Source: a virus
Direction: 5' to 3' (one strand)
IMG/VR virus record: IMGVR_UViG_3300042691_039013
Coordinates: 1 to 26,375 of that record
Length of the DNA stretch: 26,375 bases
Positions 14,936 through 23,839 of this stretch are shown piece by piece. Position numbers and translations under genes: made by a program. Under the pieces are notes generated by a model that was not told where the DNA came from, made no database searches, and was given only the letters and a program-made list of their open reading frames with translations. Within the stretch, counting starts at the first letter, position 1, and the number at the start of each line of letters is the position of its first letter.

Positions 14936-15035
14936 GGGAGGTTCACCGGTACTCCCCCCGAGCGACTCCCGGACCCCAGTTCACGAGCTGCAAGACCCCA
15001 ACTGAAGATACTCTACTATCTTACATTCAAGTATC
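14936..15035 (-). ncRNA. Structured RNA between tRNA-Gln and a tRNA-like gene
   Basis: No ORF or standard tRNA is seen. Three helices in a row on the minus strand: GATACT/AGTATC (15030-15035 with 15007-15012), CAGTT/AACTG (15000-15004 with 14977-14981) and GGGAG/CTCCC (14966-14970 with 14936-14940). GC content is above that of nearby protein genes. The third domain contains GGGGGGAGTACC, faintly like the odd T arms of the Lys and Phe tRNAs. Confidence 0.45.
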
Positions 15036-15040
15036 AGGTG

Positions 15041-15149
15041 TAGTCAGGACAGGATTCGAACCTGTACGGTATCCGCAGATACCTCTCACTTGCGTTCTCT
15101 ACCTCATTAGGTTTCCGTGATTAACGTCTATCTTTTCCGCCACCTGACT
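15041..15149 (-). tRNA. tRNA-like gene, shell family member 1 (oversized)
   Basis: Acceptor AGTCAGG/CCTGACT, D arm GCGGAAAAGATAGACGT, a perfect variable-type hairpin GGTATC-TGCG-GATACC and T arm ACAGG-TTCGAAT-CCTGT. Where the anticodon arm should be, TCAC and GTGA enclose 27 bases (GGAAACCTAATG and on) without a T33-type anticodon loop. Anticodon not assigned. Confidence 0.6.
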
Positions 15150-15164
15150 ATATAATATTGTAGA

Positions 15165-15367
15165 AGCAATGTAGTTAATTTACACCTTCAAAAGACACTA
15201 GATTCCGTTTCTTAGTTAACTTTCCTATATTAGAATCAAATGCCTTGTCAATTAAGACCAATATTTTGAATTTGAATCAATTTCAGTTTCCTGTTTTACT
15301 CGGCTATCTCACTTCTCCATCGGAGTTCTTCCCGTGATGCTTTACGATGGCGATGATCCAAATTTTG
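15165..15367 (-). ncRNA. Non-coding stretch with long-range helices
   Basis: About 200 bases without an ORF or tRNA between two RNA genes. Visible pairings: CCATCG/CGATGG (15345-15350 with 15317-15322), and GACA plus GATTC (minus) at 15246-15249 and 15233-15237 with GAATC plus TGTC at 15201-15205 and 15194-15197. Weaker than the other structured RNAs; could also be spacer. Confidence 0.3.
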
Positions 15368-15439
15368 TAGTCCCTGAGTGAATCGAACACTCTCTATGTT
15401 GTATGTAAGACAACCGCTTTCCCACTAAGCTAAAGGACT
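15368..15439 (-). tRNA. tRNA-Val (UAC)
   Basis: Acceptor AGTCCTT/AGGGACT, anticodon arm GTTGT-CTTACAT-ACAAC (UAC), T arm GAGTG-TTCGATT-CACTC, discriminator A. Confidence 0.92.
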
Positions 15440-15444
15440 AAGTT

Positions 15445-15579
15445 AGATGATGAAGGGATACCCGTCTCGTCCCAATCTTAACGGCTTAATAATAGTTTTA
15501 CGATGCATCGGCCGAGGGTGATGTCTGTTATATAGTCTTGGAGTTTGTCGACAACTCTTCAGACATCAGACCATCATCT
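15445..15579 (-). ncRNA. Structured RNA with 8-bp and 9-bp perfect helices
   Basis: A closed structure on the minus strand: AGATGATG/CATCATCT (15572-15579 with 15445-15452, 8 bp) seals the ends; TGATGTCTG/CAGACATCA (15560-15568 with 15519-15527, 9 bp) lies inside and encloses a small hairpin GAGTT-GTCGACA-AACTC (15541-15557). The remaining part (15453-15518) contains CGATGCATCG and CCGT/ACGG pairings. No ORF, no tRNA fold. It sits between tRNA-Val and tRNA-Met and is probably co-transcribed and processed out. Confidence 0.65.
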
Positions 15580-15581
15580 TG

Positions 15582-15655
15582 TGGACTCTACAGGACTTGA
15601 ACCTGTAACTTCAAGTTTATGAGACTTGCACTCTAACCGGTTGAGTTAAGAGTCC
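15582..15655 (-). tRNA. tRNA-Met (CAU)
   Basis: Acceptor GGACTCT/AGAGTCC, D arm ACTC/GAGT with GG in the loop, anticodon arm CAAGT-CTCATAA-ACTTG (CAU), T arm ACAGG-TTCAAGT-CCTGT, discriminator A. A regular elongator-type Met or Ile(CAU) tRNA. Confidence 0.9.
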
Positions 15656-15661
15656 ATTTTG

Positions 15662-15754
15662 CTGACCAATCAGGAATTGAACCTGAATCCCCCGACCCTT
15701 AGCACCTCCGTATGGGAGGCCTCCAGGGCCAGTGTGCCCATTACACCATAGTCA
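15662..15754 (-). tRNA. tRNA-like gene with 29-nt anticodon loop, anticodon unassigned
   Basis: Acceptor TGACTAT/TTGGTCA (last pair mismatched), D stem TGT/ACA, anticodon stem TGGCC/GGTCG, T arm TCAGG-TTCAATT-CCTGA, discriminator G. The anticodon loop (15698-15726) is 29 bases and holds its own hairpin CCTCC-CATAC-GGAGG. If C32-T33 start the loop, GGA would be the anticodon, but the class I variable loop does not fit Ser. Gly is otherwise missing from the set. Confidence 0.6.
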
Positions 15755-15757
15755 ATC

Positions 15758-15800
15758 GGAAGTTTCGAACCTTCCAGCTTCAGGGTAATTAATCCCGAAG
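15758..15800 (-). pseudogene. tRNA 3'-half-like remnant
   Basis: Two adjacent hairpins resemble an anticodon arm (CTTCGGG-ATTAATTA-CCCTGAAG with one bulge) and a T arm (GGAAG-GTTCGAAA-CTTCC). No acceptor or D arm is present. It could be a broken tRNA or a linker RNA. Confidence 0.35.
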
Positions 15801-15804
15801 TTTG

Positions 15805-15876
15805 CGGTCCCACCGGGAATCGAACCCGGCACTTCCCCGTGACAGGGGGATATTATAGCCGATTAACTACAGGACC
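15805..15876 (-). tRNA. tRNA-Asp (GUC)
   Basis: Acceptor GGTCCTG/TGGGACC, anticodon arm TCCCC-CTGTCAC-GGGGA (GUC), T arm CCGGG-TTCGATT-CCCGG, discriminator G as expected. Confidence 0.92.
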
Positions 15877-15886
15877 TTCAAAAAAA

Positions 15887-16069
15887 GACAAGTTTTTCGT
15901 TCCCTATGAACATCATGACCGGGTTTTAATCCGGCGGTTGAATTTCGTGATTGGGTTAATTACTCCCTACTTATATCAACTCTACTCTCACCCGTCTGAC
16001 TAGTCGCGATTCAACGGGACCCTCTTGAGTATCATATACCGAGGGGTTGCACCTCAGTCTTCACTTGTC
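15887..16069 (-). ncRNA. Structured RNA closed by a 7-bp helix, followed by T-run
   Basis: Between tRNA-Glu and tRNA-Asp. Ends pair as GACAAGT/ACTTGTC (16063-16069 with 15887-15893), then seven T on the minus strand (15880-15886), like a terminator or processing end. Inside are GAGG-TGCAACC-CCTC, CCCGT/ACGGG, CCGG-ATTAAAAC-CCGG and GTTC-ATAGG-GAAC hairpins. The tRNA-sized closing helix recalls an acceptor stem, but there is no T or anticodon arm. Confidence 0.6.
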
Positions 16070-20371: not shown

Positions 20372-20474
20372 TAGTCAGGACAGGATTCGAACCTGCATTA
20401 GCTTTATCATTCAGAGTGCCATTAGCTGTTATCTCAACCGTGAGGGTGCCGATTTACCATTAATCCACCTGACT
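20372..20474 (-). tRNA. tRNA-like gene, shell family member 2 (oversized)
   Basis: Acceptor AGTCAGG/CCTGACT, D arm GATT-AATGGTA-AATC, T arm GCAGG-TTCGAAT-CCTGT. The 53-base core between them has a CTCA-CGGT-TGAG hairpin and two copies of CATTAGCT (plus strand) but no anticodon arm that I can draw. Anticodon not assigned. Confidence 0.55.
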
Positions 20475-20534: not shown

Positions 20535-20644
20535 TAGTCAGGACAGGATTCGAACCTGTATTCTTGAATTATGACGACAGTTCGCGAGTCTGTAGTATCA
20601 AGATTATCTACTATTTAGCGTCTAACCAATTCCGCCACCTGACT
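20535..20644 (-). tRNA. tRNA-like gene, shell family member 3 (oversized)
   Basis: Acceptor AGTCAGG/CCTGACT, classic Leu-type D arm GCGGAATTGGTTAGACGC, T arm ACAGG-TTCGAAT-CCTGT. The 57-base core allows TAGTA-(11 nt)-TACTA, ACAG-ACTCGCGAA-CTGT and TCTTGA/TCAAGA, which cannot all form with a standard anticodon arm. Core length equals that of member 1. Confidence 0.58.
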
Positions 20645-22380: not shown

Positions 22381-22487
22381 AAGTCAGGACAGGATTCGAA
22401 CCTGTATTAAGCTACATATTGTGTGGGTGTCATCTCAAATGTCTTCCAAACAATCATCGCTCTACCGATAGATTTCACCACCTGACT
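22381..22487 (-). tRNA. tRNA-like gene, shell family member 5 (oversized)
   Basis: Acceptor AGTCAGG/CCTGACT, T arm ACAGG-TTCGAAT-CCTGT. An ATTGT/ACAAT stem, where the anticodon stem should be, encloses 27 bases beginning TTGGAAGAC and ending ACACCCAC. If TTG and CCAC were joined, the loop TTGCCAC would read Gly (GCC), but this is not unique. Confidence 0.55.
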
Positions 22488-22702: not shown

Positions 22703-22718
22703 ATACTTTTATTTTTTG

Positions 22719-22806
22719 AAGTCAGGACAGGATTCGAACCTGTATCAATGATGTGTTTCGCTTCCACCACATTACCACGAATTGACTCCAATTCCGCCAC
22801 CTGACT
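22719..22806 (-). tRNA. tRNA-like gene, shell family member 6
   Basis: Acceptor AGTCAGG/CCTGACT, T arm ACAGG-TTCGAAT-CCTGT. The D region (GCGGAATTGGAGTCAATTCGT) forms GAATT/AATTC. The anticodon stem ATGTG/CACAT encloses 12 bases (GTGGAAGCGAAA), not seven, and has no T33. 88 nt in total. Confidence 0.58.
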
Positions 22807-23069: not shown

Positions 23070-23144
23070 AAGTCAGGACAGGAGTCGAACCTGTTTCTAT
23101 AGAGCATAACTCCCTCTATCGTGATCCCCTTACACCACCTGACT
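23070..23144 (-). tRNA. tRNA-like gene, shell family member 7 (expanded anticodon loop)
   Basis: The most tRNA-like member, 75 nt: acceptor AGTCAGG/CCTGACT, D arm GTG-TAAGGGGAT-CAC, variable AGAA, T arm ACAGG-TTCGACT-CCTGT. The anticodon stem ATAGAG/CTCTAT has six pairs and a nine-base loop GGAGTTATG. No seven-base register with T33 is possible, so the anticodon cannot be assigned. Confidence 0.65.
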
Positions 23145-23740: not shown

Positions 23741-23839
23741 TGGTGAACCGGAGTGGGGTCGAACCACTAACCTACAGCTTCTCAGTAATACAAAATATAG
23801 ACTGAGAAGGCTGTTGCTCTTCCATTGAGCTACCGGTCC
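23741..23839 (-). tRNA. tRNA-Arg (UCU) with 24-nt insertion in the anticodon loop
   Basis: Acceptor GGACCGG/CCGGTTC, D arm GCTC-AATGGAA-GAGC, T arm AGTGG-TTCGACC-CCACT, A73 and encoded CCA: all regular. The anticodon stem ACAGC/GCTGT encloses 31 bases (23779-23809). Taking C32-T33-TCT, then 24 bases, then A37-A38 restores a normal loop (UCU). The inserted part pairs with the anticodon: CTTCTCAG with CTGAGAAG. Anticodon assignment depends on exact removal of the insert. Confidence 0.78.

Follow-up and report, generated by a model that had tools for sequence, protein, structure and literature searches.

Conserved small structured RNAs with self-complementary loops in phage tRNA arrays

Introduction

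The RNAs closest to those reported here are the stable RNAs of phage T4 and the GOLLD and ROOL RNAs. The T4 species 1 and species 2 stable RNAs, rnaC and rnaD, are of unknown function (PMC9697503). They are stable and expressed late. With lengths of 139 nt (rnaC) and 119 nt (rnaD), they are separated by 1-7 nt from one another and from tRNA-Arg. GOLLD and ROOL are phage RNAs located near tRNA islands, and assemble into homo-oligomers partly via kissing loops (PMC12286853). Non-coding RNA of the phage tRNA island is already known as a kind; the libraries contain none of the families described below, whose combination of small size and palindromic loops is, to that extent, new.

We analysed a linear 26-kb virus record (IMG/VR IMGVR_UViG_3300042691_039013, positions 1 to 26,375, hereafter the window), which carries a tRNA array on the minus strand, as well as a tmRNA gene and a gene for a T4-type RNA ligase (8905-9969). 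All RNA features of the window given below are on the minus strand. Three segments of the array correspond to RNA families that we term A (137 nt, 15444-15580, between tRNA-Met and tRNA-Val), B (184 nt, 15886-16069, between tRNA-Glu and tRNA-Asp) and C (about 100 nt, 14936-15040, between a tRNA-like gene at 15041-15149 and tRNA-Gln).

As with T4 rnaC and rnaD, these are small structured RNA genes set flush in a phage tRNA cluster. However, the present families lack the tRNA-like T arm that rnaC carries close to its end, and the host group differs. Covariance models of families A (R1) and B (R2) found no match in the T4 tRNA region (L291). With GOLLD and ROOL the present RNAs share a phage location near tRNA genes and, given the self-complementary loops found here, a capacity for oligomers that in our case is only predicted. 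Those RNAs are several hundred nucleotides long, in contrast to 137 and 184 nt here, and their secondary structures differ. Membership of either class was rejected, as neither appeared when all Rfam models were run on the array region (E up to 10) and on seven relatives (E up to 5). The link to GOLLD and ROOL is likely one of predicted self-association rather than of membership.

Results

A first-pass annotation of the window had proposed structured non-coding RNAs in these three gaps, closed by short helices. All of the named helices were found on the minus strand, which is that of the tRNAs. Segment 15445-15579 contains an 8-bp helix (AGATGATG/CATCATCT) and a 9-bp helix (TGATGTCTG/CAGACATCA), and segment 15887-16069 is closed by an end helix (ACAAGT/ACTTGT, up to 10 bp including one G-U pair) with the predicted T-run behind it. 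Stems of 5-6 bp (GATACT/AGTATC, CAGTT/AACTG and GGGAG/CTCCC) occur in 14936-15040. The segments were described as lacking an open reading frame; indeed, none of at least 50 aa is present on the tRNA strand, and short ones occur only on the opposite strand. They were also placed next to tRNA genes, and each does sit between tRNAs or a tRNA-like gene, the neighbours being tRNA-Gln, the tRNA-like gene at 15041-15149 (Rfam tRNA match, 30.6 bits) and the tRNAs for Val, Met, Asp and Glu. When folded as single sequences of the minus strand, the three segments showed no excess stability over shuffled controls (z of +0.43, -1.8 and -1.0). Single-sequence evidence is therefore weak, and comparison with homologues decides.

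The search for homologues started from an RNase H-like protein (PF04308, 14268-14729) encoded beside the array, which led to related contigs. Among the first 36 relatives, obtained with one protein query, blastn found no homologue of the three segments; the gaps between the tRNAs of these relatives contain other conserved RNAs. Use of an alignment of the RNase H-like protein as the query gave 80 loci, among which blastn identified homologues of all three segments. Conserved stretches were then run as DNA patterns across IMG/VR, giving at least 119 matches for 15445-15579, 45 for 15887-16069 and 6 for 14936-15035. About ten of the 45 family B matches were discarded as chance hairpins or terminators. 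This leaves at least 73 distinct copies of family A and at least 31 of family B in IMG/VR, two of the latter originating from blastn rather than the pattern, and 4 copies of family C. In records of 120-310 kb, each RNA was present at most once per record.

When the family A pattern was run on 84,980 genomes of bacteria and archaea, it returned one match, in a bacterial MAG (L290), and this was dismissed as chance since it has no model match and the helices are absent. Families A and B, each represented by two members, had no blastn match in INPHARED. None of the 4227 models of Rfam 15 matched the three segments (E up to 10) or the copies in seven relatives (E up to 5), consistent with the suggestion of the first-pass annotation that these are something other than GOLLD or ROOL. 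No description of these RNAs was found in the open-access literature. As far as tested, the RNAs occur in phages only, and metagenomes are their sole source; the phages that carry them are large and probably of Bacteroidota.

For family A, 54 copies with a mutual similarity below about 95% were aligned, most of them recruited by a conserved 19-21 nt pattern, as were most of the aligned sequences overall, which biases the set towards canonical members. RNAalifold returned a 9-bp end helix (P1), an arm (P3) and a hairpin (P4); a further arm, P2, is an irregular hairpin. The window copy scores 122 bits (E 1.7e-25) in cmsearch, being itself among the 54 sequences of the model. Changes on both sides were found for 12 of the 18 pairs. 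The cells of the alignment were paired in 98.1% of cases, against 83.3% in shuffles and 33-64% when the structure was slid; 158 cells were changed on both sides compared with 50 in shuffles, and the covariation score was 0.452 versus 0.172. The search pattern overlaps one strand of P4 only. Because P1, P2 and P3 lie outside it, their covariation was not produced by the search.

The individual helices bear this out to differing extents. P1 is formed by AGATGATG (15572-15579) and CATCATCT (15445-15452), with both-side changes in 8 of its 9 pairs and 96.9% of cells paired. The 8-bp end helix proposed for this segment is thus strongly supported in relatives, but the 9-bp helix (TGATGTCTG/CAGACATCA) is not conserved and seems restricted to the window and its closest relatives; the arm that is conserved at this place is the irregular hairpin P2. 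Arm P3 (15482-15514) is closed by CGGC/GCCG, with compensation in two of these four closing pairs and 99.5% pairing. Hairpin P4 (15454-15474; two pairs compensated, 99.3% paired) presents a conserved 11-nt loop, CGAGACGGGUA, which reads CGARACGGGUA in the alignment. The GGGU of this loop could pair with ACCC at 15516-15519 in a putative, nearly invariant pseudoknot. Model R1 detected one remote member outside the model (L094, 75 bits), in which the P1 sequence is wholly different and still paired, and in which P4, the ACCC/GGGU pair and the palindromes in both loops described below are kept.

The 28 aligned sequences of family B fold into eight helices (RNAalifold). Of 36 pairs, 22 carry compensatory changes, 99.1% of cells are paired (89.3% in shuffles, 35-44% with the structure slid) and the covariation score is 0.414 compared with 0.214. 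The search pattern overlaps, and thereby constrains, parts of helices 5 and 6; the other helices are free of it. The window copy scores 171 bits (E 6.9e-43) with model R2, in which it is included. The end helix P1, formed by ACAAGU (16063-16068) and ACUUGU (15888-15893), has compensatory changes in 5 of its 6 pairs, so that the end helix first noted for 15887-16069 also finds strong support in relatives. Families A and B thus withstood the refutation test set by the first-pass annotation, namely a lack of conservation or covariation of the helices among related phages.

Since these segments share their array with tRNAs, some of them unusual, and with tRNA-like genes, they might be taken for decayed tRNA genes. 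Comparison with RF00005 and ARAGORN gave no tRNA match for any of the three, and no cloverleaf, anticodon or T-loop motif is present. For families A and B decay was rejected, as it is incompatible with compensatory changes across dozens of phages; we regard this origin as barely credible. Families A and B are almost certainly real, conserved, structured non-coding RNAs.

Family C is represented by the window, L045, L055 and the end of L163. Hairpin 1 (15007-15035) has the stem GAUACU/AGUAUC, replaced in relatives by GAUAUG/CAUAUC and GAUAUU/AAUAUC, and the loop motif UGUAAG (15020-15025). Hairpin 2 (14977-15004) has the stem CAGUU/AACUG or GAUU/AAUC, and its loop motif is CUUGCA in the window (14989-14994) and CUUACA in the three relatives. 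The helices first noted here thus show a few compensatory changes, but they are conserved in only four copies. The two loop motifs, UGUAAG in hairpin 1 and CUUACA in hairpin 2, are complementary, which predicts an internal kissing contact. Family C is very probably a real, conserved, structured non-coding RNA too. All three segments are conserved structured RNAs of the tRNA strand and not spacer.

The boundaries of the RNAs relative to the tRNAs were inspected across the copies. In 22 of 54 family A and 15 of 28 family B copies, ARAGORN places the 3' end of a tRNA 1-5 nt upstream of the start; such flush starts are commoner when unusual tRNAs missed by ARAGORN are counted by eye. At the other end, 38 of 54 (A) and 8 of 28 (B) finish at most 12 nt (3-12 nt) before the next tRNA. 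We infer from this position that the RNAs would be released by tRNA processing, as the first-pass annotation had assumed. Copies without a tRNA in front are often preceded by another structured RNA or an unusual tRNA. Eight copies with no tRNA directly in front have a TAnnTTTG box ending 3-4 nt upstream of the first base of P1, which we take to be the Bacteroidota -7 promoter element.

That the RNAs are so often flush with tRNA genes would also be expected of structured spacers that merely aid folding and excision of the adjoining tRNAs, with no function of their own. This we hold to be very unlikely: a promoter-like box precedes some copies, or they lie away from tRNAs, the flanking tRNAs on either side vary between phages, and most tRNAs of the same arrays are without such RNAs. 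A spacer role also leaves the nearly invariant loops and the palindromes unexplained.

Both apical loops of family A that carry palindromes keep them in relatives. In the P2 loop, which is conserved as GUCGACA, the palindrome GUCGAC (15547-15552) is present in 53 of 54 sequences and is unpaired in 47 of the 54. The one exception, GUGCAC in L153, is also a palindrome, as is UUGCAA in the distant L094. The second palindrome forms a hairpin within P3 (CGAUGCAUCG, 15501-15510) that varies between phages but nearly always remains palindromic, with variants including GAGGCCUC, GAUGCAUC, UGGGCCCA, AGUGCACU, AACGCGUU, UGGAUCCA, UGGCGCCA, GAGCGCUC and GAAGCUUC. A self-complementary four-base centre is found in 21 of 24 distinct P3 hairpins, with six kinds of centre and an expectation of 1/16 for each, although the distinct hairpins are not wholly independent events on a tree. 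Intramolecular pairing alone needs no self-complementary centre in this hairpin. Palindromes of at least 8 bases occur in 22 of 28 distinct P3 regions versus 1.1 in shuffles; since shuffling breaks the stem, the count of four-base centres is the fairer measure. The 5' half of the palindrome is repeated downstream in many copies, where the 3' half could pair with this repeat in an alternative helix.

Variation constrained by self-complementarity is seen in the dimer-initiation loops of retroviruses, as left by pairing with an identical partner. Because the loops of family A vary yet stay self-complementary, homodimers formed via kissing loops are predicted, and we consider self-association of family A through its loops reasonably probable on this evidence. 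The palindromic loops could instead act as a site at the DNA level, or bind some partner that is not another copy of the RNA. With two distinct palindromic loops in each molecule, family A could form chains, rings or closed dimers.

Family B also conserves loop palindromes. The apical loop holds UCGCGA (16004-16009) in the window, and the variants CCGG, UCGCGA, UCUAGA, GCGC and CUCGCGAG occur across the family. Palindromes of 4 or more bases are present in all 9 distinct loops, compared with an average of 4.0 in shuffles (P 0.0004). This signal is modest, weaker than that of family A and suggestive; self-association of family B through its loops is conceivable from the loop sequences, though somewhat doubtful.

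Conserved single-stranded loops might also be those of trans-acting regulators that pair with host or phage messages or with ribosomal RNA. Unpaired stretches are strongly conserved in family A (CGAGACGGGUA, AAAACU and GUUAAGAU) and family B (GGGAGUAAUUAACC), in favour of such a role. However, the loops are palindromic instead of being complementary to one known partner, and classical pairing sRNAs are less structured, which makes regulation of this type an improbable explanation compared with self-association.

The RNAs also share features with tRNA and tmRNA: they lie in the same transcription unit, probably use the same processing enzymes, and in family A the closing end helix has a short hairpin beside it. 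This arrangement, a 9-bp end helix next to a 5-bp 3'-side hairpin (P1 and P4), is reminiscent of an acceptor and T arm, and may point to a decoy or protective role, in which these compact RNAs would engage the host nucleases or tRNA-binding enzymes that attack the phage tRNAs. The T4-type RNA ligase gene in the window (8905-9969) fits with tRNA damage in the host. Against this, family A has CGAGACGGGUA in place of a T-loop and is without an anticodon arm, and the layout of family B differs. Unlike tRNA and tmRNA, the families have no anticodon arm, T-loop or tag reading frame, and there is no match to the Rfam tRNA model or any other in Rfam. We consider a decoy role unlikely, and retain self-association of excised RNAs as the preferred reading.

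Several other unusual RNAs were observed in these arrays. A tRNA-like family occurs in the window at 15041-15149, 20372-20474, approximately 20535-20643, approximately 22381-22487, 22718-22806 and 23070-23144, as well as in L198, L180, L136, L102 and others, with 52 distinct copies of 65-146 nt and several per phage. Its nearly invariant ends (AGTCAGGTGGCGGAATTGGTAGACGC ... ACAGGTTCGAATCCTGTCCTGACT) comprise the acceptor, D arm and T arm, and its interior is hypervariable and lacks an anticodon loop of the usual form. The family resembles a natural scaffold in which a tRNA frame carries variable inserts. Antisense targeting of the own phage genome by the inserts tested was rejected, as their longest complements equal those of shuffles. 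A tRNA-Lys (12603-12690) and a tRNA-Phe (12741-12818) form intact cloverleaves that ARAGORN missed. Their T-loops read GGCGGTA/GGCGGAA, not TTCGAAA, and G18 of the D-loop is apparently replaced by A, a concerted change at mutually touching positions of the tRNA elbow; a close homologue of the tRNA-Phe in L044 has normal motifs.

Directly after tRNA-Asp, at 15656-15803, a hairpin with the 9-nt loop ATTAATTAC is followed by a T-arm-like hairpin, and the unit ends in a cloverleaf whose anticodon loop bears an additional hairpin. L037, L018, L045, L102, L078 and L076 have similar sequence. At 23744-23839, a 96-nt RNA (Rfam tRNA, 56 bits) has an insert in its anticodon arm that forms a long hairpin. 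The 217-nt gap before tRNA-Val (15150-15366; fold z -2.1) had no homologue among the fetched loci by blastn. Other conserved and structured gap RNAs of related phages, unlike families A to C, were seen at L022 5586-5745 and L032 4699-4835, at L032 4045-4132 with L038/L043, at L024 742-839 with L036, and in the Gln-Ser gaps of L012/L013/L014. The gaps between tRNAs look like a general reservoir of RNA families.

Discussion

On balance, we lean slightly towards the reading that these are excised tRNA-island non-coding RNAs of large phages that self-associate and act in infection. Comparison shows the conservation, helices and position, together with the promoter-like boxes of some copies and the loop self-complementarity; that the RNAs are transcribed and excised in vivo, dimerise and act in infection is what we infer. 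The three segments would be separate small non-coding RNA genes of large phages, transcribed as part of the tRNA array; in other phages, a TAnnTTTG promoter of their own would drive them. Cleavage of the adjoining tRNAs by host tRNA 3'-end processing and RNase P would free the RNAs with nearly exact ends, which may then fold into compact multi-arm forms closed by the end helix. Family A, and less surely family B, would pair with a second copy of itself via the palindromic apical loops, and the resulting homodimers or short oligomers would be the active form during infection. Family C would be held by the kissing contact between its own two hairpin loops. Tentatively, the tRNA arrays may harbour a set of RNAs of 100-200 nt that form RNA-only dimers or oligomers, akin to miniature, independently evolved counterparts of the GOLLD and ROOL cages; we put this forward as a possibility to which we incline somewhat less than evenly.

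At least two well-supported RNA classes, missing from Rfam and apparently limited to phages, are added by the present work. It also suggests that structured RNAs generally reside in the gaps of phage tRNA arrays. Loops that are variable yet palindromic make self-association testable, in RNAs that are small enough for routine gels, crystallography and NMR. Self-association would bear on the role of the phage tRNA-island RNAs, including T4 rnaC and rnaD, GOLLD and ROOL.
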